Of a stretch of 64,000 bases of DNA, positions 24,958 through 42,477 are shown in pieces. Within the stretch, counting starts at the first letter, position 1; every line of letters begins with the position of its first letter. The DNA is from an uncultured Ruminococcus sp. (GTDB lineage Bacteria > Bacillota > Clostridia > Oscillospirales > Ruminococcaceae): assembly GCA_902762785.1 (NCBI GenBank), contig CACWPL010000005.1:99842-163841 (forward strand). The letters run 5' to 3'. Under the pieces are notes generated by a model. That model did not search any database, was not told the origin of the DNA, and worked only from the letters and a program-made list of their open reading frames with translations. A program made the position numbers and the translations under genes.

Positions 24958-25538
24958 ACGGCGCCCTCTGCCGTTTTGCACCAGGCGGCACGTCCCTGCG
25001 AGAACAGGTCGCCGCCCGCGGCGTCATTGCAGACCACCAGCGGCAGGTCCTCCACATAAAGACGCTTCACGGATTCGCACCCCAGGTCCTCGAAAGCGAT
25101 GACCTCGAGCGACTTGATGCAGCGGGACACGAGCGCGCCCGCGCCCCCCACGGCACACAGATACACCGCCCCATTCCGGGCAACGGCGTCCTGCACGGCC
25201 TTGCTGCGCTCGCCCTTGCCGATCATCCCGGCGAGGCCGAGATCCAGCAGTCGAGGCGCATAGGGGTCCATACGGCCGGACGTGGTCGGGCCGCATGAGC
25301 CGATGACCTTCCCCGGCGGGGCCGGGGTCGGGCCGGCGTAGTATATCACCGCACCCTCGATGGGAAAGGGGGTGGGCTCACCTGCATCGAGCAGGGCGGA
25401 GATGCGCTTATGGGCAGCATCCCGCGCAGTATAGACGGTCCCAGTCAGCAGGATCTTCTCCCCGACCCGCAGGCCGGCGGACTTCAGCTCCTCTGTGCGG
25501 ACCCGACGCGGTGCCTCTGGCATGGCGTCACTGATCAT
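24954..25538 (-). CDS. Fe-S fumarase / tartrate dehydratase beta subunit (orphan)
   Basis: C-terminal (beta) domain of class I iron-sulfur fumarate hydratases: LLTGTVYTARDAAHKRI, IYYAGPTPAPPGKVIGSCGPTTSGRMD, GMIGKGERS and the final VCNDAAGGDLF. The alpha subunit carrying the cluster-binding Cys is not adjacent; the upstream neighbour is the DivIVA-like gene, whose stop overlaps this start by 11 nt. ATG 25523 is an alternative start. Probably works with an alpha subunit encoded elsewhere. Confidence 0.88.
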   Translation of the reverse strand: MISDAMPEAPRRVRTEELKSAGLRVGEKILLTGTVYTARDAAHKRISALLDAGEPTPFPIEGAVIYYAGPTPAPPGKVIGSCGPTTSGRMDPYAPRLLDLGLAGMIGKGERSKAVQDAVARNGAVYLCAVGGAGALVSRCIKSLEVIAFEDLGCESVKRLYVEDLPLVVCNDAAGGDLFSQGRAAWCKTAEGAV

Positions 25539-27159
25539 CCGAAACGGATGCCTCGGCCTCCTTGATGAGGTCGCTCATGTTGAAGAACGCAGCGCCGCCC
25601 TTCTTGGGCTTGTTCATCGCAGCGGCATCCTTCTCCATGCTGCGGAGGACGTCGTCCTCCTTGGCCATGGCATCGAAATCGTCAAGGATGGAATTGGCGA
25701 AATTATCCGAAGAGCCGGGCTTCTTCTCGTCTCTGCGGGCAGCCGGACGGGGCGCTTCCACAACAGGCACAGCAGGCGCAGCCGCGTTCATGACGGCCTC
25801 CATGCGCTCCTCGTCGACCTTGGTGTTCTCCTCCACGCTCTGACGCGCCTCGGAGAGGATGCTCTTGGACGTGCTGATGCGGTCCTCGAGCTTCTTGGTC
25901 GCGGTCTGCATGAGCTCGGCGATCTGCTCCATGCTCTTCTCGAAGCCCTCGAGCTCGATGTTCAGCATCGAGTGAACGGTCGCGGTCAGCTCGCGGACCT
26001 TAGCCTCCTGCTCAACAGCGTCCTTCTTGATCTGGACGGACTCCTCCTCGGCCTTGGTCTTGGCGGTGGTGAGGATGGTGTCGGCCTCGGCATTGGCGTT
26101 CGCGGAGCGCTCCTCGGCGTCCTTCAGCAGGCGCTCTGCCTCGGCAGTCGCGTCCTCGACGGTCTTCTTGGCCTGGGCATCGGCCTCCTCGATGGTGGCC
26201 TTCGCCTGGGCATCGGCCTCCTCGACGGTCGTCTTGGCCTTCGCATCAGCCTCCTCGACGGTCTTCTTCGCCTTCTCCTCGGCCTCACGGGTCATCCTGT
26301 CGGCGACCTTCCTGGCCTCGACAACGACCTGGTTGGCGTTCTTCTGCGCCTCTGCGTACAGCGCGCTCATATCGAACTGCGGAGCAAAGGCAGGTGCCTC
26401 ATCGGCCTTGCTCTCGAGCTCCGCCACGCGGTCCTCGAGCTCGCGCTTTTCCTTCTCAAAGGCGGCCTTCGCGTCCTCGAGGGCCTTATTTGCCTCCTCG
26501 AGCGCAGTCTTGGTGGAATCTGCGTCCTCGGAGAACTTCTTAGCCTCCTCGAGCTTCGCGGTGAGATCCTCGATCTGGGCATCCTTGGCGAACATCTCCG
26601 CCTGGAGATTGGACATCTCAGCGGTGACAGCGTTCAGCTCCTGTGCGGCCTCTGCGGACGCGCCATTCTGCTGCTCGGCACGCTCGAGCGCCTCATCCTT
26701 CGCAGTCAGCACGTTGCGCAGCTCATCGAGCTCCTCGTTCAGATCGGCGACCTCGTTGCGGAGCTCGCTGATGATCTTCTCGTCGGCGCTACTGGTGTTC
26801 TCCTGCGCCTGCTGGAGGAGCTGCTTCATGCGCTGGGCATCCGAAGCACGCTGGTCGCGCTCGGCCTTGAGCGCCTGGGCGAGCTGGGCTGCCTTATCAT
26901 TCGCGGCCTGGAGCTGGGAAGCAGCGTCCTGGACGCTCTTCTCGGCACTGTCCGCTCTCTTCTTGGCTTCCTCGGCCTCCTGCTTGTAGGACTCGACCAA
27001 TTTGGACTCCGCCTTGTCGCCAGCCGCCTGCGCCTCTTCCAGCTCTTTCTCCAGCTCATCGATCTTCGAGTTGAGCTCGCCGAGATAGGTCATGACGGAC
27101 TCTTTCTCAAGACCGCCGAACTTTGCGGGTTTCAGGATCCCGCCCGGGATATCTGCCAT
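25528..27159 (-). CDS. DivIVA-domain coiled-coil protein
   Basis: A 543-residue protein, almost wholly coiled coil. The N-terminus (PAKFGGLEKESVMTYLGELNSKIDELEKELEEA) resembles the DivIVA membrane-binding head, although the match is partial. In the middle a unit close to TVEEADAQAKA repeats about five times in tandem, an 11-residue periodicity. The C-terminus is disordered. It probably marks curved or septal membranes. Start ATG 27159 follows AAAAAAGGAG. Next to ftsZ but with its own promoter. Confidence 0.8.
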   Translation of the reverse strand: MADIPGGILKPAKFGGLEKESVMTYLGELNSKIDELEKELEEAQAAGDKAESKLVESYKQEAEEAKKRADSAEKSVQDAASQLQAANDKAAQLAQALKAERDQRASDAQRMKQLLQQAQENTSSADEKIISELRNEVADLNEELDELRNVLTAKDEALERAEQQNGASAEAAQELNAVTAEMSNLQAEMFAKDAQIEDLTAKLEEAKKFSEDADSTKTALEEANKALEDAKAAFEKEKRELEDRVAELESKADEAPAFAPQFDMSALYAEAQKNANQVVVEARKVADRMTREAEEKAKKTVEEADAKAKTTVEEADAQAKATIEEADAQAKKTVEDATAEAERLLKDAEERSANANAEADTILTTAKTKAEEESVQIKKDAVEQEAKVRELTATVHSMLNIELEGFEKSMEQIAELMQTATKKLEDRISTSKSILSEARQSVEENTKVDEERMEAVMNAAAPAVPVVEAPRPAARRDEKKPGSSDNFANSILDDFDAMAKEDDVLRSMEKDAAAMNKPKKGGAAFFNMSDLIKEAEASVSDDQ

Positions 27160-27236
27160 AGTGATCGCTCCTTTTTTGCAGGGCACGGGACCTGCGGCTA
27201 CTGCACAGCCCTCCCGTGGCCGTTATCATTATTGTT

Positions 27237-27413: not shown

Positions 27414-28658
27414 TCAGTTGTTGCCGAGGATGTTGAAGATCTCGGTCATATCCACGTCATTGGTGACGGGACGGCGCTGGGTGGGCTCGCTGTAATCCAT
27501 CTTGCCATCGAGCAGCGGATTGCTGATCGGGATGGGATCCTGGGCGATGTCGGCGAAGGTCGGCACCGGGCCGGGCATCGGCGGCGCAACGTCCTGGACG
27601 GGCATCGGGGCCGGAGCCGGTGCAGGTGCAGGTGCGGGTGCAGGTGCGTGCGGCAGCTCCTGCTTGGGAACGAAGGCCTCGTTCTTGGCAGGTGCGGGCG
27701 TATCGGAGAAGTCGGCGGCGATGACGGTGATGGTCATCTCGTCCTGCATGTCCTCCTTGAAGGCGGCACCGAAGATGAACTGTACCTCAGGCGCAGCGGC
27801 CTCGGTGATCATCTTGGACGCAGTATCGACATCGGAAGCAAGGGTATCCTCGGACATCGCGATGTTGATGAGCAGGCGCTTCGCCCCTGCGATCGAGGTC
27901 TCGAGCAGCGGGCTGGAGATGACGGCCTTGGCGGCATCGACAGCCTTGTCCTTGCCCTCGCCGTGGCCGATGGCCATGTGGGCATAGCCGGCGCCCTTCA
28001 TCGTGGACGAAACATCGGCGAAGTCGAGGTTGATGTAGCCCTCCTCGACGATCAGGTCGGCGATGCTCTTGACACCAGTCTTGAGGATGCCGTCGGAGAG
28101 CGCGAAGGACTCCTTCATGGTCAGCGGCTTCTCGAGGCCGACGAGCAGGCGCTCGTTCGGGATCACGATCAGCGAATCGACGTATTTCTTGAGCTCCTCG
28201 ATGCCGGCCTCTGCCTGCGCCATCTTCTGCTCACGCTCGAAGGCGAAAGGCTTGGTCACGACGGCGACGGTCAGGATGCCCATCTCCTGGGCGGCCTTGG
28301 CGACGATGGGAGCCGCACCGGTGCCGGTGCCGCCGCCCATGCCGGCGGTGATGAAGACCATGTCCGCGCCCTTGAGCGCGGCCTCGATCTCCTCGAGGTT
28401 CTCCTCGGCGCTGTGCTGGCCGATCTCGGGCTTATTGCCGGCGCCGCGGCCCTTGGTGAGCTTCGCGCCGATCTGGATGCGGGTAGCGGCCTTGGAATTC
28501 TTCAGGGCCTTCGCATCGGTGTTGATGGTCACATATTCAATGTCGCTGACATCGGAATCGACCATGCAGTTGAGCGCATTGCCGCCGCCGCCGCCGACAC
28601 CGATGACCTTGATGTTCACGTCCGGTTCATACGTATCCTCATAGATGAAGTCGGTCAT
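27414..28658 (-). CDS. ftsZ: Cell division protein FtsZ
   Basis: Tubulin-like GTPase that forms the division ring. N-terminal VIGVGGGGGNALN, the tubulin signature GGGTGTGAAP near residue 105, and the T7 loop region NLDFADVSSTM are intact. After the core (about residue 325) comes a linker with a run of Ala-Pro repeats and a C-terminal peptide ending DMTEIFNILGNN. Length 414 is slightly long because of the linker. Monocistronic: own promoter, and a terminator separates it from ftsQ. ftsA is absent. Confidence 0.97.
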   Translation of the reverse strand: MTDFIYEDTYEPDVNIKVIGVGGGGGNALNCMVDSDVSDIEYVTINTDAKALKNSKAATRIQIGAKLTKGRGAGNKPEIGQHSAEENLEEIEAALKGADMVFITAGMGGGTGTGAAPIVAKAAQEMGILTVAVVTKPFAFEREQKMAQAEAGIEELKKYVDSLIVIPNERLLVGLEKPLTMKESFALSDGILKTGVKSIADLIVEEGYINLDFADVSSTMKGAGYAHMAIGHGEGKDKAVDAAKAVISSPLLETSIAGAKRLLINIAMSEDTLASDVDTASKMITEAAAPEVQFIFGAAFKEDMQDEMTITVIAADFSDTPAPAKNEAFVPKQELPHAPAPAPAPAPAPAPMPVQDVAPPMPGPVPTFADIAQDPIPISNPLLDGKMDYSEPTQRRPVTNDVDMTEIFNILGNN

Positions 28659-28812
28659 TGCTTTTCCTCCTAGGTGAGCGATTGTGAGCTGATATGATCC
28701 TGTCTGATCTTGCGCGATGCTGCTCCAAAATGACGTGGCATCGCGGTCATACCGCCATTCTGTCCCCGAAAGGGCATAGCGGTCCTACATTGACATATTT
28801 CGAGACATTATT

Positions 28813-28841
28813 ATTTTAACACATCCCGCAGCCTTTTTCAA
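28813..28841 (-). promoter_or_regulatory. Promoter of ftsZ
   Basis: Minus strand: TTGAAA (28841-28836), 17 nt, TAAAAT (28818-28813). The leader to ftsZ is about 150 nt. Confidence 0.65.
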
Positions 28842-28853
28842 TACCCTTTTCGT

Positions 28854-28876
28854 AAAAAAAGCATTTTTATGCTTTT
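28854..28876 (-). terminator. Terminator between ftsQ and ftsZ
   Basis: Stem AAAAGCAT/ATGCTTTT with a 4-nt loop, then a T7 tract on the minus strand. It ends the long mraZ-ftsQ unit directly upstream of the ftsZ promoter. Confidence 0.75.
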
Positions 28877-28949
28877 CCACAACTCTCCCGCTCTGTTTTT
28901 TATCGTTTTTAACAAAAATGTACAGTAAATTTATCCTGATCCACCAAGA

Positions 28950-29903
28950 TCATCCCTCGTCGCCGAGGCCCTCGTCGATGGGCGGTAGCTCGTCCTCGGG
29001 ATGGGCGACGGTCTCCTCCTCGGTGCCGTCACCGTCCTCGGCCGCCTCGGTGGCCTTGGGCTTGCCCTTGTCCTTCTCCGCGGCGTTCGCGGCGGCGATG
29101 GCCTTCTGGGTGGCCTCGTAGTCCGCCTTATTGCGGAAGGAGCACTGGTTCGACCCGATCATCACCAGGTAGCCCTCCTTGTCCGCGGGCAGCTCGGAGA
29201 TGACCTGCTCGGCGAAGCTGATCTTGTAGTCGATCTCGCTCCAGTTGCCCATGTCGAAGACGATCCGATGGTCGAGGTCGACCATGATGTCGGCCAGATC
29301 TGTCATGTCCACGCCCACGATCGGGACGGTCAGGCCGCCCTCGTAGATGATGTCGCGGAAGGCATTGAAGACCTTGTCGTAGCGCTCCTCCTTGGCCTTG
29401 ACCTGGCAGCCGGGAGTGGTCTCCTCGGGCTGGTAGCCGGTGATCTTGACGAGGCCGTCGACGGGATCCATCGTGTCGTCGAGGATCCGCCCGTGCTCAC
29501 TGACGACGAGCGTGCCGAAGTCGTACATCACATTATAGGCCGGCGTACACTTCTGCACGCGGATCTCGAGGGTGTTCGGGAACTGGCGGTCGATCTCGAT
29601 CTCCTCGACGTAGATGAGCTGCGCCAGTGCCCGCTCCCGCGCCGCCTTGGTGTCCAGGCGGATCATGTTGTCGCCCAGCTCGATGCCGGTGGCGGTGACG
29701 ATGTCCTCGGCGTGGTAGTTCTCGGCGTTGCCGGTGACGCGGATGGTCTTGATGTTGAAGAACAGCGTCATGCACAGCGCCACGATGACCGACAGCGCCA
29801 GCACGATGATCATGACCACATAGAGCGACCGCCCGCGCTTGCGGCGGCGGCTCCTTCGGCTGTTCGTTTCATGTGGGATACTGGTCTTCTCTACGTCTCT
29901 CAC
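28950..29903 (-). CDS. ftsQ: Cell division protein FtsQ/DivIB
   Basis: Bitopic divisome protein, 317 residues. A basic N-tail (SRRSRRRKRGR), one membrane helix (about 28-50), a POTRA domain (IKTIRVTGNAENYHAEDIV) and the FtsQ core with IEIDRQFPNTLEIRV. The C-terminus is a long Lys/Glu-rich, probably disordered tail. The start is GTG at 29903, six nt after GGAGG. Last gene of the dcw transcription unit. Confidence 0.9.
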   Translation of the reverse strand: MRDVEKTSIPHETNSRRSRRRKRGRSLYVVMIIVLALSVIVALCMTLFFNIKTIRVTGNAENYHAEDIVTATGIELGDNMIRLDTKAARERALAQLIYVEEIEIDRQFPNTLEIRVQKCTPAYNVMYDFGTLVVSEHGRILDDTMDPVDGLVKITGYQPEETTPGCQVKAKEERYDKVFNAFRDIIYEGGLTVPIVGVDMTDLADIMVDLDHRIVFDMGNWSEIDYKISFAEQVISELPADKEGYLVMIGSNQCSFRNKADYEATQKAIAAANAAEKDKGKPKATEAAEDGDGTEEETVAHPEDELPPIDEGLGDEG

Positions 29904-29953
29904 GGTGATCCTCCATCCTTTTGTTGCCTAGTTCTAGCCTTTTTTCTTCTGTT

Positions 29954-31207
29954 TCAGATACGAACGATGTCCGCCCCGACGCTGCGCAGCACCTGCTCGG
30001 GGCTGTCGTAGCCGCGGTCGATGTGGCGGATGTCGGTCAGCACGGTCTCGCCCTGCGCGGCGAGGGCGGCCGTCAGCATGGCGGCACCGCCGCGCAGGTC
30101 GGTCGCTGCCACCTGCGCACCGTGCAGCGTGACCGGGCCGCGGATGACGGCCGCACGTCCCACGATGCGGATGTCCGCGCCCATCTTCACGAGCGCGTCC
30201 ACATGGCGGAAGCGGTCGGAGAAGACCGTCTCCTCGATGACGGACGCTCCGTCCGCCAGACACAGCGGCACGGTCACGACCGCCTGGGCATCCGTCGGGA
30301 AGCCCGGGTAGGGCATCGTGCGGATGTCCCGCACGGCGCGCAGGGGGCATCCGCCGTAGACGGTCAGGCTGTCCTGCCCGCGTTTGCAGCGGCATCCCAT
30401 CTCCTCGAAGACGTCGAGGACGCTCTCGAGGCTCGCGGCGTCGGTGCCGGCCAGGCGGAGCCGTCCGCCGGTCGCGGCCGCGGCTGCGAGCCATGTGGCC
30501 GTCACGATGCGGTCGGGCATGATCCGATGGGTGCAGCCGGTGAGGGACGGGACGCCCTCCACGCGGATCGTGCTGCATCCCGCGCCCTCGATGCGGGCGC
30601 CGCAGCCGTTCAGATAGGCCGCAAGGTCCATGATCTCCGGCTCGCGGGCGGCATTCGTGATGACGGTCTCGCCCTTGGCCATGACGGCGGCGAGGAGGAT
30701 GTTCTCGGTCGCCCCCACGCTCGGGAGCGCGAGATGGATCCTCGCGCCGTGCAGGCCGCCGGGGGCGGTGCAGCGCAGGATGCCATCCTCCTCACGGATG
30801 CGCACGCCCATGCGGCGCAGCGCGGCGAGGTGCAGGTCGATGGGCCGCGGCCCCAGCTCACATCCGCCCGGATAGCCGAGGCTGCACGTCCCCATGCGCC
30901 CCAGCATCGCGCCCATGAAGATGATCGACGAGCGCATCTCCTGCATGAGCCCCTCCGGGACGGCGGCGGCAGTCGGGGCATCCGCGCAGATGACGGCGGA
31001 CGTCCCCTCGAGGCGGCAGCGGCATCCCAGGCTCCCCAGGATGCGGCACGCCGCGTACACGTCCGAGAGGCGCGGACAGTTCTCCAGCACGCTCTCGCCT
31101 TTGCAGAGCAGCGCGGCGGACAGGATGGGCAGTGCGCTGTTCTTCGCGCCCTGCACGGTGATCTCTCCCTCGAGCCGCTTGCCGCCGTGGATGACGAATC
31201 TCTGCAT
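29954..31207 (-). CDS. murA: UDP-N-acetylglucosamine 1-carboxyvinyltransferase
   Basis: First committed step of peptidoglycan synthesis, adding enolpyruvate from PEP to UDP-GlcNAc. N-terminal GAKNSALPILSAALL, active-site loop GYPGGCELGPRPIDLHL with the catalytic Cys (Cys116), which implies fosfomycin sensitivity of the enzyme, and the C-terminal PYPGFPTDAQA. Length 417 is normal. It sits between murG and ftsQ, 46 nt or so from each. Preceded by AAAGGAG. Confidence 0.96.
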   Translation of the reverse strand: MQRFVIHGGKRLEGEITVQGAKNSALPILSAALLCKGESVLENCPRLSDVYAACRILGSLGCRCRLEGTSAVICADAPTAAAVPEGLMQEMRSSIIFMGAMLGRMGTCSLGYPGGCELGPRPIDLHLAALRRMGVRIREEDGILRCTAPGGLHGARIHLALPSVGATENILLAAVMAKGETVITNAAREPEIMDLAAYLNGCGARIEGAGCSTIRVEGVPSLTGCTHRIMPDRIVTATWLAAAAATGGRLRLAGTDAASLESVLDVFEEMGCRCKRGQDSLTVYGGCPLRAVRDIRTMPYPGFPTDAQAVVTVPLCLADGASVIEETVFSDRFRHVDALVKMGADIRIVGRAAVIRGPVTLHGAQVAATDLRGGAAMLTAALAAQGETVLTDIRHIDRGYDSPEQVLRSVGADIVRI

Positions 31208-31261
31208 GTTCCCCCACTCCTTTCATACCACATCGTATGAAAGAACGCAGGGATGGGTGAA

Positions 31262-32389
31262 TCACCGCTTGATCTGCATCAGCTTCTCGATGACGCTCCA
31301 GATGCGCGCGTCCGTGTCGGTGACGGCGAGGGACGCGGCGTTCTGCGCCATGCTGCGGAGCTTGTCGCGGTCGTCGTAGAGGGCCTTGATGCGGGCGATC
31401 ATGTCGTTGTTGTCGAGGTCCTTCTGCTCGATGACCTCGGCCGCACCGGCACGGGCGAGCACCATGGCGTTGTGGTACTGGTGGTTGCCCGCCACGATCG
31501 GCGACGGGATCAGGATCGAGGGCTTGCCCAGCGCCTCGAGCTCCGCGAGCGCGTTCGCGCCGGAACGGCAGACCACGAGGTCGGCGGCCGCCATGCAGGT
31601 GTCCATGTCGTTGATGTACTCCGTGATGCGGATGCGCTCGCTCGTCATGGGGATGTTGTAGACGTCCATCTTCTGCGGGAAGGTGTCGCGTCCCATGCCG
31701 CCGTAGCCGTGGAGATGGTTGATCGGCAGCTTGTTGGACGTGTGCCAGCGCAGCACCTCGGCCATGGACTCATTGATCGCGCCCGCGCCGAGGCTGCCGC
31801 CGAAGGACAGGATCGTGAAGGCGTCATCAAAGCCCAGCTCCGCGCGTGCCTGCTCGCGGGTCTTGTGGAAAAGTGCCTCACGGACGGGCAGGCCGGTGAC
31901 GGTGTACTGGATGCCGTCCTCGAAGTGCTCGAGCGCGTCCTCCACCGTCAGCATCACATGGTCGACCTCCTTGGCGAGGAGACGGTTGGTGACGCCGGGA
32001 TAGGCGTTCTGCTCATGGATGGCCGTGGGGACGCCCATCTTCGCCGCCATGCGGATGACAGGACCGGCGACATAGCCGCCCGTGCCGATGGCGATGTCCG
32101 GCGAAAAGTCCCGGACGATCTGCTTGGCGCGTGCGCCCGAGAAGGCCAGGTACCAGAGCGCCTTCACGTTCCGGCCGATGTTCTCGGGGGTGAAGCTGCG
32201 CTGGAACCCCTCCACGCGGATGAACTCGATGGGGTAGCCCGCCTGGGGGATGAGCTGCGCCTCCATATGGTTCGGCGTGCCGGCGAAGAGGAACTGCGCG
32301 TCCGGCACATGTGCCTTGATGATACCGGCGATGGCGAGGGCGGGGTTGATGTGCCCGCCGGTGCCGCCGCCTGCAAGGAGTACTTTCAT
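31262..32389 (-). CDS. murG: UDP-GlcNAc:lipid I N-acetylglucosaminyltransferase
   Basis: Converts lipid I to lipid II at the inner face of the membrane. Glycine-rich LLAGGGTGGHINPALAIA at the N-terminus, IGTGGYVAGPV, IHEQNAYPGVTNRLLA, SFGGSLGAGAINESM and the donor-binding CRSGANALAELEALGKPSILIPSP are all present. Length 375 is normal. Between ftsW and murA in the cluster. Confidence 0.97.
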   Translation of the reverse strand: MKVLLAGGGTGGHINPALAIAGIIKAHVPDAQFLFAGTPNHMEAQLIPQAGYPIEFIRVEGFQRSFTPENIGRNVKALWYLAFSGARAKQIVRDFSPDIAIGTGGYVAGPVIRMAAKMGVPTAIHEQNAYPGVTNRLLAKEVDHVMLTVEDALEHFEDGIQYTVTGLPVREALFHKTREQARAELGFDDAFTILSFGGSLGAGAINESMAEVLRWHTSNKLPINHLHGYGGMGRDTFPQKMDVYNIPMTSERIRITEYINDMDTCMAAADLVVCRSGANALAELEALGKPSILIPSPIVAGNHQYHNAMVLARAGAAEVIEQKDLDNNDMIARIKALYDDRDKLRSMAQNAASLAVTDTDARIWSVIEKLMQIKR

Positions 32390-32428
32390 AAACGATGCTC
32401 CCTTTCTAGGTGTGGTAGATGAGACAGA

Positions 32429-33679
32429 TCACGCCTCGCGGGGGTACTCCCCCTCGATCGTGCCGACCTGCACGCGCTCCACGGGCTTGACGACCTCGCG
32501 GGAGCGGGAGATGTTGAGCACGATGCCCATTTGCGTGAGCTGCATGATGAGGGCCGTGCCGCCGTAGCTGAAGAACGGCAGGCTGATGCCCGTGTTCGGG
32601 ACGAGGCCGCTGACGACCGCGATGTTGATGAACGCCTGGAGCCCGATCTGGAGCGTGAAGCCGATGGCCACGAGCATCCCGAAGCGGTCCTTGCTGTGGA
32701 TGGCGATGTGGAAGCCCTGTGCCACGAGGAGCACGAAGAGCAGGATCACCATGACGGCGCCGAAGAAGCCCAGCTCCTCGCAGACGATCGAGAACACGAA
32801 GTCGTTCTCCGCCTCGGGGAGGTAGATATACTTCTGGCGGGACTCGCCCAGGCCCAGACCGAACAGGCCGCCCGAGCCGATGGCGATCAGCGACTGGCGG
32901 GTCTGCCAGGTGCCGGCCTCGTCAGGGCTGTTGAAGGGGTCGAGCCAGGTGTTGATGCGCGTCTCGAAGTAGCTGACGCCGCGCGATGTCATCAGGTAGA
33001 TGATGAGACCGACCAGCAAGACAGCGCCGATGGCGCCGACGATGTCGATGTGCCACCACTTCGCCCCGCCCACGAACATGAGCGTCACGCCGATCAGGAT
33101 GATGAGCAGCGAGCAGGACAGATGCGGCTCGAGCATCAGCAGTCCCACCACGAACACCAGCAGGAACGCGAAGGGCAGCGTGCCGACCGTGAACTTCTTC
33201 ATGCGGTCGAAGTTCTGGTCGATCAGGAACGCGAAGATGATGACCACCGCGAACTTGGCCAGCTCCGATGGCTGGAAGGTCGTGAACGGGAGCTTGATCC
33301 AGCGCTTACATCCCGTATCGAGGTCCGTACCGATGAACAGCACCAGCAAGAGCAGCGCGAGCGCGCCGATGTACGCGCCGAATGCCACGATCCGTTTTTG
33401 GAAGAAGTGGTAGTCCACGAAGCTCATCGCGACCATCGCGATCAGGCCCACGCCCGCGAAGATGGCCTGACGGAGCGCGTAGAAATAGCCCGCCTTGCCC
33501 TCGTTGATGGCGATCGCGTAGCTCGCCGAGAACATCATGACCAGGCCGATTCCCAGCAGGATCAGCACGGTCAGGCCGAAGGTCAGGTCGGTGGGGCCTA
33601 CGCGGACGCGGATCGGCGCCTGCTCCTTCTTGGCGGCGCGGGCGGCGCGGCGGGGCACCTTCTTTTTTCGCAAAGCCAT
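32429..33679 (-). CDS. ftsW: SEDS-family glycan polymerase FtsW/SpoVE
   Basis: Polytopic septal peptidoglycan glycosyltransferase working with the class B PBP encoded upstream. About ten membrane helices. Conserved segments include SLIAIGSGGLFGLGLGESRQK, LPEAENDFVFSIVCEELGF and the last-loop SLPFFSYGGTALIM. A basic, probably cytoplasmic N-tail of about 30 residues precedes. Length 416. It follows the MraY-like gene by 27 nt, the position where murD is usually found. Confidence 0.95.
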   Translation of the reverse strand: MALRKKKVPRRAARAAKKEQAPIRVRVGPTDLTFGLTVLILLGIGLVMMFSASYAIAINEGKAGYFYALRQAIFAGVGLIAMVAMSFVDYHFFQKRIVAFGAYIGALALLLLVLFIGTDLDTGCKRWIKLPFTTFQPSELAKFAVVIIFAFLIDQNFDRMKKFTVGTLPFAFLLVFVVGLLMLEPHLSCSLLIILIGVTLMFVGGAKWWHIDIVGAIGAVLLVGLIIYLMTSRGVSYFETRINTWLDPFNSPDEAGTWQTRQSLIAIGSGGLFGLGLGESRQKYIYLPEAENDFVFSIVCEELGFFGAVMVILLFVLLVAQGFHIAIHSKDRFGMLVAIGFTLQIGLQAFINIAVVSGLVPNTGISLPFFSYGGTALIMQLTQMGIVLNISRSREVVKPVERVQVGTIEGEYPREA

Positions 33680-33706
33680 TGTTTGCCTCCATTCTGAGGG
33701 GATGCG

Positions 33707-34635
33707 TCACCGGCACGCGATGACGGCGAGGATGCCTGCGGCGGCTGCGAAGGCGGCCAGCAGGGCGATGCGATGGAGCGGCGGCGTGCCGTTCTTCTCC
33801 ATCATATTTAAAAGAGTCTGTTTTTTGAAGACGAGCGGGAGGGCGTTCACGGCCGGAAATGCGGCGATGAGCGCGGGGACGGTCCATCCGGCCGTCTGCC
33901 AGACCATGACCGCCGCCATCGGCACCGCGCTCCCGAGGAGATAGCTCCCCACGCGCCCGAGGCGGCATTTGGCCGGGTGCAGCACCCAGACCATGCTCCC
34001 GATCGCCGCCCCTGCGGCGGCCTGTGCGTAGAGCGCCGGGAGCAGCGTCCCGACCTGCATCAGCGCCACGGCCAGCGGCAGCAGGAGCGCCGCGCTCACC
34101 GTGACGGTGGTGCCGTCACATTCGCGGTCGAGTCCCTGCATCAGGTACCAGATGACCGCGATATAGGCGGAATACAAAAGGTCCGGCGTCGTCGTGACGA
34201 TGTACTGGAGCGCCGTCGTCACGAGTGCGACCGCCAGCATCTGCCAGATGCCCCAGACCCGCCGGATCAGGCGTCCGCGGATCGACATGCTGTCCACGAC
34301 GATCCCCGCGCCCGCGAGCAGCGCACCGTGCGCCGTACACAGGAGCAGCATCCGCAGCTCCGTGCCATACTGCCGCTCCGGCAGATCCGGCACGAAGAGC
34401 GAAAAGCCGATCACGACCCCCGCCAGCGTGCCGAACAGCACCAGCAGACCGCCCATCGTCGGGCGGCGGCGGACGGGGGCGGTGTCCTCCTGGCCGTCCT
34501 TATGCTGTGTGTCTTTCGTGTTCGGCTCCGGCTCGAACAGACGGAGCCTCTCGAGGAACGGGATCAGGGCGATCCCCATGATCCCGGCGGCCAGTCCCGC
34601 CCCGAGCGCGGCGGCGAGCTGGACCCAGACGGACA

Positions 34636-34636
<1 letters not shown>
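33707..34636 (-). CDS. MraY-like membrane protein lacking catalytic residues (probable pseudoenzyme)
   Basis: A 309-residue polytopic protein located exactly where mraY lies in dcw clusters (murF-mraY-ftsW). It keeps RRPTMGGLLVL, the counterpart of GTPTMGG in MraY, and HPAKCRLGRVGSYLLG, the counterpart of YPAQVFMGDVGSLALG. The catalytic positions differ: the DD pair reads V114-D115, the Asp of MGDVGS is Arg228, the NLTDGLDGLA loop is GLDRECDGTT, and the HHH motif is L-H288-R-I. It is too degenerate to make lipid I by the known mechanism. The frame is intact and it overlaps murF by one base (TGATG), so it is expressed. Possibly a divisome scaffold. Confidence 0.75.
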
Positions 34637-35988
<1,352 letters not shown>

Positions 35989-36009
35989 TGCTTTGCTCCT
36001 TCCCCAGTA

Positions 36010-37473
36010 TCACAGGGTCTTTAAGATGTCTGCGACGACCTCGCGCTCGTCGAAGTGCTTCTTCTCCGTGCCGAAGATCTGATAATCCTCGTGTCCCTTG
36101 CCCGCCAGGACGATGACGTCCCCGGGCTCCGCGGTGCGCATCGCGTGGGCGATGGCCTCGCGGCGGTCGATGACGGTGTCATAGGGGACGGCGCTGTCGG
36201 CCAGTCCCGCCAAAATGTCCCGGATGATGGCCTCGGGGTCCTCCGTGCGGGGGTTATCCGAGGTCACGATCAGCTTGTCGGCGAACTTGGCCGCCGCCTG
36301 CGCCATCAGCGGGCGCTTGGTGCGGTCGCGGTCGCCGCCGCAGCCGAAGAGGCACACGAGCCGCCCCTCCGTGTAGAGCTTGACGTTCTCGAGGATGTTC
36401 TCGATGGCGTCCGGGGTGTGGGCGTAGTCACAGATGACGGAGAAGTCGCGCCCCGTCGGGATGACCTCGCAGCGCCCGCGCACGCCCGGGCAGCTTTGCA
36501 GCGATTCGAGCATCCCCGGGACGGTCAGCTTCTCGTCGCCGAGGAGGCTGCACGCCGCGAAGGCCGCGGTCGCGTTGGCGATGTTGAAATAGCCGGTCAT
36601 CCGCATGTCGATCTGGTAATAGCGGTCGTCCATGTGGTCGGCGGAGACGTGGAGCGTGAAGGACGCCCCGTCCGCGCGGACCTTGCCGGGGGCATAGGCG
36701 AAGGCCGGGACGTCGTCGTGTGCCTCCCTGCCGTAGCTGTACTTGCGGCAGGCCGTCTCCTTGAAGAGGCGGATGCCGTAGTCGTCATCGGTGTTGATGA
36801 CGGCGGTGTCGCAGATGTCGAAGAGCATCCGCTTGGCCTCGTAATAGGCCTCCATGGTCTTGTGGTAGTCCAGGTGATCCTGGGTCAGGTTCGTGAAGAC
36901 GGCGACGTCGAAATGCGTCGGGCCGATGCGCTTTTGCACGAGGCCGAAGCTCGAGACCTCCATGACCACATAGTCACACCCGGCCTCGTACATCCTGCGA
37001 TACAGCTCGAAGAGCTCGAGGGTGACGGGGGTGGTGTTCTCGGTGTGGAGGATCTGGTCGCCGATCTCGTTCTGGATGGTGCCGATCAGGCCGACCTTGT
37101 GGCCGGCGGCGGTCAGCAGGTACTTGATGACGGTGGTGATGGTGGTCTTGCCGTTCGTGCCGGTCACGCCGATGAAGCGCATCTTCCGCTCCGGGTGGCC
37201 GCACCATGCGGCGCACAGGGCACCGTACTCCGCGCGCGTGTCCGGGACGACGATCTGACGGTCGCCGAGGCCGAGATCGTGGTCGCACACCACGGCGGCA
37301 GCGCCCTTTTCGAGCATGTCGGCGGCGGCGGTGTGGCCGTCGAAGCGCCCGCCCTTCACGCAGATGAAGAGCGCGCCGGGGATGACCCTGCGGGTGTCGT
37401 CCGTGATGAAGGTGATCTCAGGATCGTTCTGGGGCGCCGCGTGGCGTCCCTCGAGCAGTTCGGAAAGTCTCAT
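36010..37473 (-). CDS. murE: UDP-MurNAc-L-Ala-D-Glu:meso-diaminopimelate ligase
   Basis: Adds the third residue of the peptidoglycan stem. ATP loop GVTGTNGKTTITT, DVAVFTNLTQDHLDYH, and the specificity motif SDNPRTEDP. DNPR is the signature for meso-DAP rather than lysine. Length 487. The ATG at 37473 follows AAAGGGAG; a TTG six codons earlier is less likely. Confidence 0.96.
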   Translation of the reverse strand: MRLSELLEGRHAAPQNDPEITFITDDTRRVIPGALFICVKGGRFDGHTAAADMLEKGAAAVVCDHDLGLGDRQIVVPDTRAEYGALCAAWCGHPERKMRFIGVTGTNGKTTITTVIKYLLTAAGHKVGLIGTIQNEIGDQILHTENTTPVTLELFELYRRMYEAGCDYVVMEVSSFGLVQKRIGPTHFDVAVFTNLTQDHLDYHKTMEAYYEAKRMLFDICDTAVINTDDDYGIRLFKETACRKYSYGREAHDDVPAFAYAPGKVRADGASFTLHVSADHMDDRYYQIDMRMTGYFNIANATAAFAACSLLGDEKLTVPGMLESLQSCPGVRGRCEVIPTGRDFSVICDYAHTPDAIENILENVKLYTEGRLVCLFGCGGDRDRTKRPLMAQAAAKFADKLIVTSDNPRTEDPEAIIRDILAGLADSAVPYDTVIDRREAIAHAMRTAEPGDVIVLAGKGHEDYQIFGTEKKHFDEREVVADILKTL

Positions 37474-37513
37474 GCTATCGCTCCCTTTCAATAGTCAAGC
37501 TTGGGGTCGGTCA

Positions 37514-39838
37514 TCAGCCGGTCTGGTCATTGACAAGGTACGTCAGCTTGACGACCGTGCCGACCTCGACCTCCGTGCCCGGCTCGACGGACTGCTGCTC
37601 GACGAGCGCGTCCGTGCGGTCCTCGGAGGCACCGACGGTGACATAGTTCAGATCGAGATTCTTGAGCGCCTGGGTGGCGTCGTGTGCGGTGTAGCCGGTC
37701 AGATCCGGGACGGTGACGATCTTGGGCGCGTAGCCCTCCTCCGTGTAGAGGATGACCTTGCCCGAGGACGAGACGGTCGTGCTCGTCATCGGCGACTGCC
37801 CGACGACCGTTTTGCCCTCGCCCACGATCTCGCACTCGAGGTGGAGATCCTCCTCGATGGTCTTCTGCGCGATCTCGACATCGGCGTCGATCAGGCGCGG
37901 GATCGGGACGTCGAGCTTGGCGTACTGCTCGGCGGTGTACTCGGGATAGTAGCCCAGATGGTCGAGCGCGTCCTGCATGATGTTGCGGGCATAAGGCGCG
38001 GCGACCACAGAGCCGTAGTAGTTGATGTTCTTGTTCGGCTCGTCGGCCATGACGAGGATGACGAACTCCGGATCGTCGGCCGGTGCGAAGCAGGTGTAGG
38101 ACGCGACATACTGCATGGTCTCTGCCGTGCGGTACTCGTCGAGCTTCTGGGACGTACCGGACTTGCCGCCGATGGCGTAGCCGTCGATATGGGCGTTCGA
38201 GCCCTCCTTGTCGTCGACGACGGCTTGGAGGAGCTTGCGCATCACGGCGCTCGTCTCCTCGGAGATGACCTGACGCTTGATGTTCGTGTCGTAGCTCTTG
38301 ACGATGTTGCCGTCATTCGATATAATTTTATCGACTACGTGAGGCTCCACCAAGTACCCCCCATTGACTGCCGCGGCGATACCGCTTACCATCTGCATCG
38401 GCGTGAGTTTTGATGCTTGCCCGAAGCTCGACGTACACAGGTCGATGAGCATCATGTGGTCCTCATCATAATAGATGGAGCTGACCTCGCCGGGGAGGTC
38501 GATGCCGGTCTTCTCGCCGAGCCCGAAGGCCTCGAAGTAATGGCAGAACTTGTGGATGCCCAGCTTGCGGCCGACCTCGATGAAGGCCGGGTTGCAGGAA
38601 TTCGTCAGTGCCTGGGAGAAGGTCTGCATGCCGTGGCCGGAGAGCAGGTGGCAGTGGATGGTCTCGCCGGAGATCTCGTAGGCACCGCTGCAATAGAAGC
38701 CGTCGTTCTGCCAGTCGATGGCCTTCTCCTCGATGGCGGCGGAGGCGGTGAAGATCTTGAAGACCGAGCCGGGGGTGTAGATCTCGGTGATGGCCTTGTT
38801 CTTCCACTGCTTCTCGCGGGCGTTGAGGTAGGCCTCCTGGTACTCCTCCTCGGGGAGGGCGGCAAGGGCGTTCGCGGTGCCCTCGTCATAGATGGCCGTG
38901 GGGTCGTTGAGGTCGAAGGACGGGTAGGTCGCCATCGCGTAGATCGCGCCGGTGTTCACGTTCATGATGATGCCGCAGGCGCGGTTGCGCACCTCGAACT
39001 TGGTACACATCTCCTCGAGGTTCTTCTCCACGGAATATTGCAGCGTGGGGTCGATCGTGAGGTAGAGCGAGGCGCCGTCCTGGGCGTCATAGGTCGAGGA
39101 ATAGCGATAGGGCATCGTCCGGCCGTTGGCGTCCTTCGCGGAGGTCACGCGGCCGTTGACACCGGCGAGGTAGTCGTTGTAATACGCCTCGAGGCCGTAC
39201 TGGCCGTCGTTGTCGCTGTTCGTGAAGCCGACCACCTGCGCGGCCAGCTCGTTCTGCGGGTAGTAGCGCTTGGAGTCCTGCTGGGTCGTGATGGACTCGA
39301 TGCCCAGCTTCTCAAAATACGCCATCAGCTCGTCGGCCACGTTCTTCTCGACCTGGCTCTGGAGGACGTAATACTGCGTATCCTTCTCCATCGCCGTGAG
39401 GATGACGTCCTCCGTGATGCCGAGCTTGGTGGAGAGCAGGTGGACGATCTCGTCCTCGATCTGCTGGCGCGTCTTGACGATGGTCTTGGGCGGGAGGGTC
39501 TCACCGGCGTCCAGGATCGCCTGGCGCTCGTTCATGATCTCCTCGATCTTATCCATCTCCTTGCGGTAGTTCACCGGGTCGATGTATACCTTATATACGG
39601 TCGCGCTCCATGCGAGGGGCGCGCCGGTGCTGTCGTAGATGGCGCCGCGGCTCGCGGTGATCGTGCGGTTGGTGAAGTGGGTGTTGTTCGCCATCTCGGC
39701 GTATTCCTTGTGGTCACGGATGGTCAGCATCCCGACTCCGACGATGACCGCACCGACCATCAGCATCAGCGGTGTCATCACCCCGAACACCAGCCGCTTG
39801 TTCATCCCGGACGTCGGCTCATGGTCTGCATATCTCAT
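37514..39838 (-). CDS. Class B penicillin-binding protein with PASTA domains (SpoVD/FtsI type)
   Basis: Septal transpeptidase. One N-terminal membrane helix (about 17-39), the dimerisation domain, and the transpeptidase with S358-VFK (SxxK), S414-C-N (SxN) and K559-SGT (KTG-type). The C-terminus has two PASTA-like units (about 640-705 and 705-774), as in SpoVD and Gram-positive PBP2x. 774 residues. ATG at 39838 follows AGGAG with an 8-nt gap. A hairpin with a T-tract lies between ftsL and this gene. Confidence 0.93.
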   Translation of the reverse strand: MRYADHEPTSGMNKRLVFGVMTPLMLMVGAVIVGVGMLTIRDHKEYAEMANNTHFTNRTITASRGAIYDSTGAPLAWSATVYKVYIDPVNYRKEMDKIEEIMNERQAILDAGETLPPKTIVKTRQQIEDEIVHLLSTKLGITEDVILTAMEKDTQYYVLQSQVEKNVADELMAYFEKLGIESITTQQDSKRYYPQNELAAQVVGFTNSDNDGQYGLEAYYNDYLAGVNGRVTSAKDANGRTMPYRYSSTYDAQDGASLYLTIDPTLQYSVEKNLEEMCTKFEVRNRACGIIMNVNTGAIYAMATYPSFDLNDPTAIYDEGTANALAALPEEEYQEAYLNAREKQWKNKAITEIYTPGSVFKIFTASAAIEEKAIDWQNDGFYCSGAYEISGETIHCHLLSGHGMQTFSQALTNSCNPAFIEVGRKLGIHKFCHYFEAFGLGEKTGIDLPGEVSSIYYDEDHMMLIDLCTSSFGQASKLTPMQMVSGIAAAVNGGYLVEPHVVDKIISNDGNIVKSYDTNIKRQVISEETSAVMRKLLQAVVDDKEGSNAHIDGYAIGGKSGTSQKLDEYRTAETMQYVASYTCFAPADDPEFVILVMADEPNKNINYYGSVVAAPYARNIMQDALDHLGYYPEYTAEQYAKLDVPIPRLIDADVEIAQKTIEEDLHLECEIVGEGKTVVGQSPMTSTTVSSSGKVILYTEEGYAPKIVTVPDLTGYTAHDATQALKNLDLNYVTVGASEDRTDALVEQQSVEPGTEVEVGTVVKLTYLVNDQTG

Positions 39839-39895
39839 GCTATCAACTCCTATCGCCCTTCCCGGGCGTGCGTGGCTCATTGGCGGCATCTACGA

Positions 39896-39925
39896 CAAAA
39901 AAGGCAGGTAGATGCCCGCCTGCCT
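39896..39925 (-). terminator. Intra-cluster terminator between ftsL and the PBP gene
   Basis: Stem AGGCAGG/CCTGCCT (39902-39908 with 39919-39925), then T6 on the minus strand. Only about 55 nt separate it from the PBP start, so it may act as an attenuator rather than an end. Confidence 0.65.
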
Positions 39926-40106
39926 GTTTTGTTATCGTTCCCTTGCTCTTCACGGATGAGGCCGTGTCCGTCCCGGCGATGCCTTTTTTATCTCTCTCGG
40001 ACGGACAGCGGCGCTCCTTTGCACACTCGTGCATCTCCTTACTTTTATGCTATCGGATGGGAGCGGTGCGGCGGCGGCCTGTGTCTCTTTGTAACGGCCT
40101 GCGCGC

Positions 40107-40580
40107 CTAGCCGCGGAGGTAGTCTAGGATGCTGTCGAACCATCCCTTGATGCGGACGAACACGTTCTGCTCGGCCTCCGGGATGCTCACGACATCGTTC
40201 GTTTGGATCTGGACGTACTCCACCTGGGAGGTGTTCAGCGGATACATCCCGAGCTGCTCCTCGGCGAACTCCTGGATGTTCTTATTCGACGCCTTCCCCG
40301 CCAGCTCGGACTGCATCCGCACGTTCTCGGCCTGCAGATCGCTGTATTCGCGGGTGAGCGTGGTGATCTCGTTGCTGATCTGGAGCTGCTGCACACGACT
40401 GAGGATCACCATGCTGACGAGTGCGAAGCAGATAAAGATCCAAAATACAAGGCGCACGACAGGTGCTCGATGGGTCGACCCGTTTCTCATATCGTAGTGT
40501 TCGATGTATCGCGGCGGATATGAGGGGGACGGCTTGGGCTGAGGTGCAGGTGCTGTATTTCCCGACCGCTCATATGCCAT
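40107..40580 (-). CDS. ftsL: Septum formation initiator FtsL-like protein
   Basis: A 157-residue bitopic protein: Pro-rich cytoplasmic tail, membrane helix (about 44-62) and a periplasm-side leucine-rich coiled coil (QISNEITTLTREYSDLQAENVRMQSEL), then GMYPLNTSQVEYVQ, the usual FtsL/DivIC ending. It partners FtsQ and FtsB in activating FtsW and the PBP. Assigned by position and architecture, since FtsL sequences diverge strongly. Confidence 0.83.
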   Translation of the reverse strand: MAYERSGNTAPAPQPKPSPSYPPRYIEHYDMRNGSTHRAPVVRLVFWIFICFALVSMVILSRVQQLQISNEITTLTREYSDLQAENVRMQSELAGKASNKNIQEFAEEQLGMYPLNTSQVEYVQIQTNDVVSIPEAEQNVFVRIKGWFDSILDYLRG

Positions 40581-40699
40581 AATACGCGGCTCCTTTCTTC
40601 TGTATTCATGCAGATGCGCCGATCGCGCATGCTATCCGCCTAAAGCGGTAAAGCGTTCGCCGGCCAGATACCGGCAATGTCTTGGTGTCGCTGTGGCCG

Positions 40700-41668
40700 T
40701 CAGCGCGGATAGGCGACGCCGTCCGCCAGCTTCTCGATGGTGCGCAGCTTCGCGCTGCGGGAGCGGCGGTTCTCGGCCAGCTCCGCCTCGCTCGCCGTGA
40801 CCGGCTTGCGGTCGAGGAGCCTGCCGCGGGGCTTTTTGCCGCAGACGCACTGCGGAAAGTCCGGGGGGCAGGTGCATCCGCTGCACCATGCGGCGAACTG
40901 CTGCTTGACGATCCTGTCCTCCAGCGAGTGGAAGGTGATGACCGCCAAACGGCCGCCCGGCTTGAGACAGTCGAACGCTGCCTCCAGTCCCCTGCGCAGA
41001 TGCTCGAACTCCTGGTTGCAGCAGATGCGCACGGCTTGGAAGGTCTTCTTGGCGGGGTCCTTGTCCCGCCTGTATTTTGCCGGCACAGCCTCTCGGACGA
41101 TGTCCGCGAGCTGTGTGGTCGTCTCGATGGGGGACGTCTCTCGCGTGCGGGCGATGGCCGCGGCGATGCGTCCGGCGAACTTCTCTTCGCCATAGTCCCG
41201 CAGGATGCGGGCGATGTCCTGCTCCGCCCAGTCGTTCACGATGTCGCGGGCGCTCAGGCCCTCCTGACTCATGCGCATATCGAGCGGTGCGTCCTGATGA
41301 TGCGAGAAGCCGCGCGCGGCGGTGTCGAGCTGGTGGGACGAGACACCCAGGTCCAGCAGCACGCCGTCGACGCACGCACCGGGCATCCCCAGTGAGTCGA
41401 GCGCCTCGCGCATCTCGGAATAATTGCAGTGGATGACCTTCGCGGGATACCCCGCGAGCCTTGCGGTCGCCGCAGCGACGGCGTCCGGGTCACGGTCGAG
41501 CCCGATCAGCAGCCCCTCGCCCTGCATCCTTTCGCAGATGCCGCGCGAATGGCCGGCACCGCCGACGGTCCCGTCGATATAGATGCCGCCCGGCCGGGGC
41601 GCCAGGCGCTCCATCGTCTCCAAAAAGAGGACGGGCGCGTGGGAAAAGCTGATGCTCTCGGGAGCCAT
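40700..41668 (-). CDS. rsmH: 16S rRNA (cytosine1402-N4)-methyltransferase
   Basis: SAM-dependent methyltransferase modifying C1402 in the P site. Motifs: HAPVLFLETMERL, DGTVGGAGHSRGI, GLDRDPDAV, LLDLGVSSHQLD and VITFHSLEDRIVK. Length 322 is normal. Second gene of the cluster, behind mraZ. Confidence 0.96.
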   Translation of the reverse strand: MAPESISFSHAPVLFLETMERLAPRPGGIYIDGTVGGAGHSRGICERMQGEGLLIGLDRDPDAVAAATARLAGYPAKVIHCNYSEMREALDSLGMPGACVDGVLLDLGVSSHQLDTAARGFSHHQDAPLDMRMSQEGLSARDIVNDWAEQDIARILRDYGEEKFAGRIAAAIARTRETSPIETTTQLADIVREAVPAKYRRDKDPAKKTFQAVRICCNQEFEHLRRGLEAAFDCLKPGGRLAVITFHSLEDRIVKQQFAAWCSGCTCPPDFPQCVCGKKPRGRLLDRKPVTASEAELAENRRSRSAKLRTIEKLADGVAYPR

Positions 41669-41698
41669 GGTCTGCCGCCTTTCTCTATGAGATCGGGA

Positions 41699-42181
41699 TC
41701 AGAACGAGATCCCCTCCAGGTCGCTCGGGTCGGCCATCGGGTCGAAGGCCTCATCCTGAGCGCGGAAGGCCTCCAGATCCCAGATCTCGGCCTTGCGGCC
41801 TGCGCCGATCACGACGACGTCCTTCTCGAGATTCGCGTATTCACGCAGGTTCCCGGGGATCAGGATGCGTCCCTGCTTGTCAGGCGTGACCTCCACCGCG
41901 CCGGCATTGAACCAGCGCAGGAGCGCCTCGGCGCGCGGCCCCTTCCTCCCCATGAGCTGCTGCTGCATGTCCAGCCACCCCGCGAGGGAGTAGACTGCCA
42001 GGAAATGGCCCGTGAGCGCGCGGGCGACCCAAAAGGTCTCGCCGATGATGTCTCGCAGACGCGCCGGGAAGTTGATGCGACCCTTCGCGTCCAGGCTGTG
42101 ATAATAGGTGCCGGCGAGCGAGATGTTCTCGATGTACGCCGTCTCCGTGGCGTTCTCGTTGATCTGATCCAGTGGATCCAT
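41699..42181 (-). CDS. mraZ: Transcriptional regulator MraZ
   Basis: AbrB-fold DNA-binding protein that represses its own dcw operon in other bacteria. Two repeats are seen: SLDAKGRINFPARLRD and TPDKQGRILIPGNLREYA, both with the DxxGR core. About 20 extra residues precede the usual start. Length 160. ATG at 42181 follows AGGTGAGCAGG. First gene of the cluster after a leader of about 300 nt. Confidence 0.94.
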   Translation of the reverse strand: MDPLDQINENATETAYIENISLAGTYYHSLDAKGRINFPARLRDIIGETFWVARALTGHFLAVYSLAGWLDMQQQLMGRKGPRAEALLRWFNAGAVEVTPDKQGRILIPGNLREYANLEKDVVVIGAGRKAEIWDLEAFRAQDEAFDPMADPSDLEGISF

Positions 42182-42477
42182 CCTGCTCACCTGCCGTTCG
42201 TGTCTCTGCTTTCTTTTGCTCTAAGCGTGTTTGTGTTTGTCTCTTTTGTTCTGCCCAAAGGTCTGTTTATGTATTTGCTTTGGAACGTCTCTCTTTATGA
42301 CGGTCCGACCGCTGCTTCTCTATTTATGCGTCCCGGTGGGGGCTCGATCCCTGTCAGCGGAGCGTTCCAGAGGCGGTGCAAGAGCAGTTTTTCATTTTAA
42401 CTGTTTTGTGACCGTCCTTGTCTCCATTTCGTTGGGATGGATACCCACTCGGTCGGTGCAACGTTTCGGACTATCTA
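42182..42477 (-). promoter_or_regulatory. Long untranslated leader of the dcw cluster
   Basis: About 296 nt between the predicted start site and mraZ. Read on the minus strand it is purine-rich near mraZ. It contains a small stem (CAGTT/AACTG around 42385-42405), and GACGGTC near 42415 can pair with GACCGTC near 42300. No ORF with a ribosome site and no known riboswitch was recognised. Confidence 0.45.

Follow-up and report, generated by a model that had tools for sequence, protein, structure and literature searches.

MraY, the phospho-MurNAc-pentapeptide transferase, is essential in walled bacteria and is a drug target. The enzyme (TIGR00445) belongs to the PNPT superfamily, has a ten-helix fold with PTMGG and HPAK motifs, and is encoded in the dcw cluster upstream of ftsW. 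In Bacillus subtilis MraY, the residues D98, D99, K116, N171, D174, D231, H289 and H290 were reported to be important for catalysis (PMC5039524), and in Aquifex aeolicus MraY the Asp of the MGD motif binds Mg (PMC5039524, PMC4790310). MraY is reported to co-precipitate with MurG, and its loops I and V have been considered likely sites of partner binding (PMC5039524); a membrane complex of MurF, MraY and MurG has been suggested (PMC4929429). Here we describe a gene at the mraY locus of an uncultured Ruminococcus sp. (assembly GCA_902762785.1, contig CACWPL010000005.1, positions 99,842 to 163,841; this whole stretch of 64,000 nucleotides is called the window). Its product, P, keeps the MraY scaffold and is probably inactive, and an unlinked, distant MraY-type protein may make lipid I in its place.

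33707..34636, minus strand: pseudo-MraY gene (P, 309 residues), defined by open reading frame and DNA, profile scores and a predicted MraY fold

The window gene is MraY by fold, homology and position. P scored 29.3 bits against TIGR00445 (NCBIfam mraY; curated cut-off 192) and 18.6 bits against PF00953 (gathering cut-off 27), below the cut-off in both cases; 17 of the 22 copies found in the genus exceeded the PF00953 cut-off. Searched against PDB sequences, a profile of these 22 copies matched MraY only at E<=0.01 (five distinct sequences, best E 1e-15). The AlphaFold2 model of P was confident (predicted local distance difference test score 91.7, predicted template-modelling score 0.90), and all 37 of its matches at E<=0.001 in a fold search of the PDB were MraY or the related DPAGT1. 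The fact that both the profile and the model match only MraY (and DPAGT1) in the PDB indicates that the resemblance is not due to chance. Prediction and fold search agree on the ten-helix PNPT fold, and the gene lies between murF and ftsW, the place occupied by intact MraY copies in related genera. An earlier note on this DNA, made from the sequence alone, had reported an open frame of 309 codons sharing one base with murF and a retained MraY scaffold. Its coordinates were right, with the gene on the minus strand, and both RRPTMGG and HPAKCRLGRVGSYLLG were found in P. The ATG is at 34636-34634 and the stop at 33709-33707, which gives 309 codons plus the stop; the murF stop TGA (34638-34636) provides its A to this ATG, producing the one-base overlap. 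An alternative in-frame GTG start is present one codon upstream (34639).

For the active site, 54 degenerate copies were aligned with 16 intact MraYs as reference and scored at 11 active-site positions. Twenty-five of them form the window group, which comprises the 22 genus copies and three from named loci (L214, L216, L217), assigned by similarity and by the tree of MurF, MurG and FtsW; the other 29 lie outside it. The following sites of P were mapped (TM, transmembrane helix).

34448..34468, minus strand: RRPTMGG, residues 57-63, scaffold motif of loop A/TM2, kept by alignment; Pro59 and Gly63 invariant in 22 copies
34295..34297, minus strand: Val114 codon, in place of the first DD Asp; Asp in 0 of 25 window-group copies
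34292..34294, minus strand: Asp115 codon, second DD Asp, retained; Asp in 25 of 25 window-group copies
33956..33979, minus strand: HPAKCRLG, residues 220-227, kept loop D motif, within the most conserved region of the family
33953..33955, minus strand: Arg228 codon, Mg-binding MGD Asp lost; Asp in 0 of 54 degenerate copies
33773..33829, minus strand: loop E, residues 270-288, HHH lost; all 25 window-group copies lack each of the three His

P thus differs from MraY in the loss of the Mg-binding Asp, the first DD Asp, a conserved Lys, the loop Asn residues and the HHH motif. Val114 and Arg228, which the earlier note had placed at the two Asp sites, were confirmed by the alignment with the 16 intact MraYs; the non-Asp residues at both sites ruled out an ordinary MraY that had merely been misaligned. 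The TDGLDG loop had also been called broken. Its last Asp is retained in 24 of 25 window-group copies; the two Asn of NAVNLTDG are lost. Nor is HHH reduced to one His, as had been claimed: P has no His at any of the three positions, and the remaining His288 aligns outside the motif. Residue 132, a conserved Lys in MraY, is Gln in P and probably corresponds to K116 of B. subtilis. By alignment, at most three of the 11 active-site positions remain in the window-group copies. Since residues reported to be important for catalysis or Mg binding are lost, P is probably catalytically inactive.

Degenerate copies also occur in other genera, apparently with several origins. The MGD Asp was missing in all 29 copies outside the window group, and the other residues varied. 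These copies include those of three R. albus strains and of Ruminococcus sp. Marseille-P6503, which are milder, with Glu at the first DD Asp and Gln or Glu at the MGD Asp.

The dcw copy was present in 22 of the 25 genomes of the genus, with 32-47% identity in matched segments and no internal stops; the genome search reads through stops, and none was reported inside the dcw matches used. One copy (G013) was split across two contigs. The three genomes without the gene have completeness values of 63-78%; in G016, one of the three, the contig stops some 120 bases past murF. murF and ftsW flank 21 of the 22 copies, and a contig end truncates the 22nd. The ratio of nonsynonymous to synonymous substitution rates (dN/dS; dS exceeded 1.5 in several of all the pairs reported here) was 0.094-0.209 for pseudo-MraY in nine close window-group pairs. 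Three pairs drawn from R. albus strains and one close relative gave 0.10-0.11 for the degenerate copy versus 0.01-0.06 for murF, ftsW, murG and murE. As these values show, the degenerate gene is constrained, less so than its neighbours. A pseudogene in decay, which the earlier note had thought unlikely, was ruled out as the main explanation by dN/dS together with the open frames. The same note's proposal of an inactive MraY retained at the mraY locus gains support from the residue loss in every aligned copy, the stop-free gene in 22 of 25 genomes of the genus, the dN/dS values and the predicted fold.

At least 90% of the 22 genus copies keep polar residues such as Gln6, Asp115 and Asp174. The best-kept regions in the window group were loop D, TM7, TM1, TM2 and TM10; loop B, TM4, TM5 and loop E, which are near the catalytic cleft, were relaxed compared with intact MraY. 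This comparison sets 24 sequences of one group (the fragment from L013 was dropped) against 21 of the order, so that only its pattern is meaningful.

The earlier note had also supposed that the true MraY must be elsewhere. The sole other match to PF00953 or TIGR00445 in the window's genome, whose assembly is 92% complete and could lack a further mraY-type gene, is a 325-residue protein, here called I, on another contig (C15), unlinked to the dcw cluster. I carries GYLDD, NVTNCTDGVDG, MGDAGS and PLHDH, so that the DD pair, both loop Asps, MGD and an H-D-H triad are all present, which supports that supposition. I and P are both PNPT proteins, and the first match of the AlphaFold2 model of I was MraY (TM-score 0.80). 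The two proteins are only 16.8% identical, and I differs from P in lying outside the dcw cluster, in its complete catalytic Asps, in RGAG in place of PTMGG, and in HDH in place of HHH. I scored 80.8 bits against TIGR00445, below the cut-off of 192. A WecA/TagO identity was rejected, as the TIGR02380 score was lower still (36.4 bits, cut-off 326).

I was found in 25 of 25 genomes of the genus, with 60-69% identity to the copy of the window's genome (in G011 in two segments, 62 and 74%), and is much better conserved within the genus than the dcw copy; its dN/dS was 0.075-0.166 (five pairs). The DD pair, the two loop Asn, the two loop Asps and MGD were complete in all 28 aligned I sequences, of which the genus contributed 25, and in all 34 of a wider set. 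The HHH position reads HDH in all 28 and in 33 of the 34, with one HDQ. Of the 28 I genes found in the family survey described below, two (G465, G561) have one stop within the profile match, although their frames of 344 and 312 residues contain every motif. mraY is cleanly gone from four genomes (G432, G172, G055, G119), where the order is murE-murF-ftsW-murG. I was found in three of these, G432 (Ruminococcus sp. AH.5_1), G055 and G119, and G172 was not searched for it. In these three, and also in Lachnospira pectinoschiza (G420) and one Butyrivibrio (G425), I is the sole PF00953 gene above the cut-off. Because MurG stays, lipid I must be made and I is the only candidate found, we strongly infer from these sequences that I would be the working MraY.

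No peptidoglycan context was found among the neighbours of I at 81 loci. By eye, without a family search, its window-group neighbours resembled ispE and a dockerin-like protein, and those in R. albus resembled phospholipid genes. The gene directly upstream of I in the window's genome (L001, 11-1246, plus strand) has dockerin-like repeats by eye, and related genes occur near I at 29 of the 81 loci.

Co-occurrence was surveyed in 197 genomes of the family, in which I was present in 28 and MraY above the NCBIfam cut-off in 161. MraY above the cut-off was found in five of the 28 genomes with I versus 156 of the 169 without it (Fisher p 2.6e-16, not corrected for kinship); such a MraY was lacking in 23 of the 28 and in 13 of the 169. 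G574 and G604 were taken as G418 and G433, given their identical match coordinates, and the MraY of G451 was counted as above the cut-off from its E-value of 6.2e-67. The dcw locus was examined in 21 of the 23, all but G499 and G580: nineteen have an open degenerate copy there and two have deleted it. Outside the window group, 26 of 29 degenerate copies came from genomes where I was found. Neither MraY nor I was found in G520 (95% complete) or G146 (99% complete). murF was also not found in G146, which points to an assembly gap there. Among the five genomes with I beside MraY above the cut-off is G471 (L304, contig C68, 4761-5780, minus strand), whose MraY has MGN for MGD and DAVNLTDG for NAVNLTDG and is otherwise almost intact. 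To judge from these substitutions, it is possible that this copy represents an early step of inactivation.

A tree of concatenated MurF, MurG and FtsW was built from 46 rows, with four window-group rows and without L209 and L210; five rows (L245-L248, L289) rest on MurG and FtsW, no separate murF frame having been found there. The sister of the window group was a genus that has intact MraY and lacks I (G225, whose row is of the MurG and FtsW type; support 100/100). Lineages with degenerate or deleted mraY fell into several groups separated by intact ones, which requires at least six changes; if loss is irreversible, we count seven groups holding only such lineages. A single clade of these lineages, as expected from one ancestral loss, was rejected by the approximately unbiased (AU) test (p-AU 1.1e-45, seven changes), which used 32 of the 46 rows with near-duplicates dropped, a quick tree and LG+G4. 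Given this rejection, inactivation of MraY seems to have been repeated independently in several related groups. The AU test could mislead through transfer of whole clusters, as MurF, MurG and FtsW are linked to the mraY locus. A tree of the MraY-family proteins could not settle the number of losses, because the degenerate copies form long branches; it left out 11 of the 22 P rows, 19 of the 28 rows of I, five rows of the other degenerate copies (L209, L210, L214, L216, L217) and five of ten WecA-type rows. The tree of I, with 11 of 31 inner branches open, does not separate vertical inheritance from transfer.

The window's dcw cluster is complete-looking and contains the following genes around P.

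27414..42190, minus strand: whole dcw cluster, with mraZ, rsmH, ftsL, PBP2, murE, murF, pseudo-mraY, ftsW, murG, murA, ftsQ and ftsZ
36010..37491, minus strand: murE, with Mur ligase domains, named from position
34636..35988, minus strand: murF, TIGR01143 408.7 bits, above cut-off, overlapping the pseudo-MraY start by one base
32429..33679, minus strand: ftsW-type SEDS gene, PF01098 308.9 bits, 27 bases past the pseudo-MraY stop
31262..32389, minus strand: murG, TIGR01133 251.7 bits, above cut-off

The SEDS gene scored 332.4 bits against TIGR02614 (ftsW), slightly below the cut-off of 337.5, and takes its name from position. rsmH is named from sequence and position only, and ftsL from a match to an FtsL-like family slightly below its cut-off. 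After ftsZ, a 552-residue coiled-coil-like protein (25528-27186, minus strand) without a Pfam match at E 1e-4 resembles by eye, at its N-terminus, proteins near ftsZ in L240 and L241. Other clusters vary around murE and murF. At L204, L205, L208, L300 and L302, murE is absent between the penicillin-binding protein gene and murF; these loci belong to genus g22, with degenerate MraY, and to g183, with intact MraY and I. A murE-like gene follows ftsQ at L204, L205 and L208. L245 (G225) and L248 (G304) showed no murF frame in the interval from murE to the intact mraY. At L246, L247 and L289 the murE frame has roughly double the normal length and may be a murE-murF fusion.

That selection has repeatedly preserved a protein lacking its active site, and at its old place in the operon, suggests that the degenerate MraY has a retained non-catalytic role. 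By the reading to which we lean, with a little better than even confidence, catalysis would have moved to I and a presumably inactive MraY would have been kept as a scaffold for MurF, MurG and FtsW. The window gene would be the original mraY of the lineage, and lipid I synthesis would have passed to the unlinked, distant I. With I present, the Mg site, the catalytic Asp and the nucleotide loop of the dcw copy have gone, and purifying selection has continued on its fold, its position after murF and certain specific residues. What remained would be the non-catalytic half of the MraY job, a membrane platform for MurF, MurG and FtsW where lipid II is made, possibly including I as well; the reported co-precipitation of MraY with MurG and the suggested MurF-MraY-MurG complex would suit such a platform. 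Several observations weigh against this displacement with a retained scaffold. The loops that the literature connects with partner binding are not specially conserved (loop E 0.49 versus 0.67 in intact MraY; loop A 0.47 versus 0.50), which weakens a simple scaffold. Four genomes have cleanly deleted the gene, so that its role must be dispensable there. Copies outside the window group retain up to seven of the 11 active-site residues. The dN/dS of the degenerate copies exceeds that of the neighbouring genes; it was 0.14-0.26 in six further pairs and 0.515 in the pair L204/L208 (murF 0.359, ftsW 0.395), compared with 0.076 and 0.185 in two pairs of intact MraY. Finally, I was not found in three genomes with degenerate copies, G490 (99% complete), G584 (85%) and G525 (88%), which may reflect either assembly gaps, for which G520 and G146 are comparable cases, or residual activity of some copies.

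That last observation would also suit a transferase which is still active with a rearranged site or a new substrate, as would Asp115 and the two loop Asps that remain in P by alignment, and the Glu or Gln substitutions of the R. albus and Marseille-P6503 copies. The window group lacks most of the residues reported to be important in B. subtilis, the Mg ligand included (PMC5039524), and I is available throughout the genus, so we regard continued activity as very improbable. The earlier note had proposed a sensor or binder of the lipid carrier (C55-P or lipid I). The retained fold and the largely kept Asp115, last loop Asp-Gly and PAK agree with it. However, the Asp proposed to bind C55-P and to deprotonate it, D117 in A. 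aeolicus and D98 in B. subtilis (PMC5039524, PMC4790310), is the one lost in 25 of 25 copies. Constraint is also relaxed at the residue-132 Lys position and in loop E following TM9b, which lies close to the proposed carrier groove, and the proposal appears improbable, if less so than activity. About as improbable is that the protein has no function, the frame serving translational coupling of murF and ftsW or being a slowly decaying relic. An overlap with the upstream gene or a gap of at most five bases, seen in 22 of the 32 degenerate loci whose context was available (with uncurated starts), and the fast sequence drift within the genus would fit it. Against it stand the dN/dS values of the window group and of R. 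albus with its close relative, the conservation of Gln6, Asp115 and Asp174, the absence of stops from the dcw matches, and the direct overlap of murF and ftsW at loci that have deleted the gene (L241, L242).

MraY crystallises as a dimer. The main rival is accordingly that the degenerate MraY pairs directly with I, serving as the pseudo-subunit of a heterodimer and stabilising or regulating the active enzyme. The presence of I with 26 of the 29 outside copies and in every genome of the genus is in line with such pairing, and so are the well-kept TM1, TM2, TM7 and TM10, the interface helices being not confirmed here. Yet G432, G055, G119, G420 and G425 have no PF00953 gene above the cut-off other than I, which therefore does not need a partner there, and the low identity of I to the degenerate copy also speaks against a heterodimer; we think it unlikely, though the least so of these alternatives. 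Returning to displacement with a retained scaffold, a broader form of that reading, which we hold only tentatively, is that MraY may have an essential-like structural function separable from its chemistry. The two would have been separated several times in this family: once another type of MraY had taken over catalysis, the dcw MraY would have lost its active site and in most cases persisted as an architectural component of the lipid II machinery and the divisome.

Testing MraY for a structural role is difficult, since cells die when its activity is taken away. In these genomes evolution has apparently abolished that activity several times, with the protein kept, and R. albus and its relatives would make the role directly testable. 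I, in turn, would be a functional MraY that does not receive the name in standard annotation. As it scores below the MraY cut-off, genome surveys could call these bacteria mraY-less or credit the degenerate gene. Pseudoenzymes and enzyme displacement are known kinds of event. In the open-access PMC literature, searched by titles and the beginnings of abstracts, we found no description of a degenerate dcw MraY kept after repeated displacement by a distant MraY.

Two described systems resemble parts of this case. MglA of Kitasatospora viridifaciens, a relative of MurG that can replace it (PMC8092295), is likewise a distant relative taking over a membrane step of lipid II synthesis. It differs in concerning MurG rather than MraY, and the part of that report covered here describes no retained, inactive original. 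In Clostridioides difficile, peptidoglycan synthases encoded in the dcw cluster are specialised for sporulation (PMC10693644), and these genes too have kept their place and changed their role. The C. difficile proteins are described as synthases in the part of that work consulted, whereas the window MraY has lost its active site.
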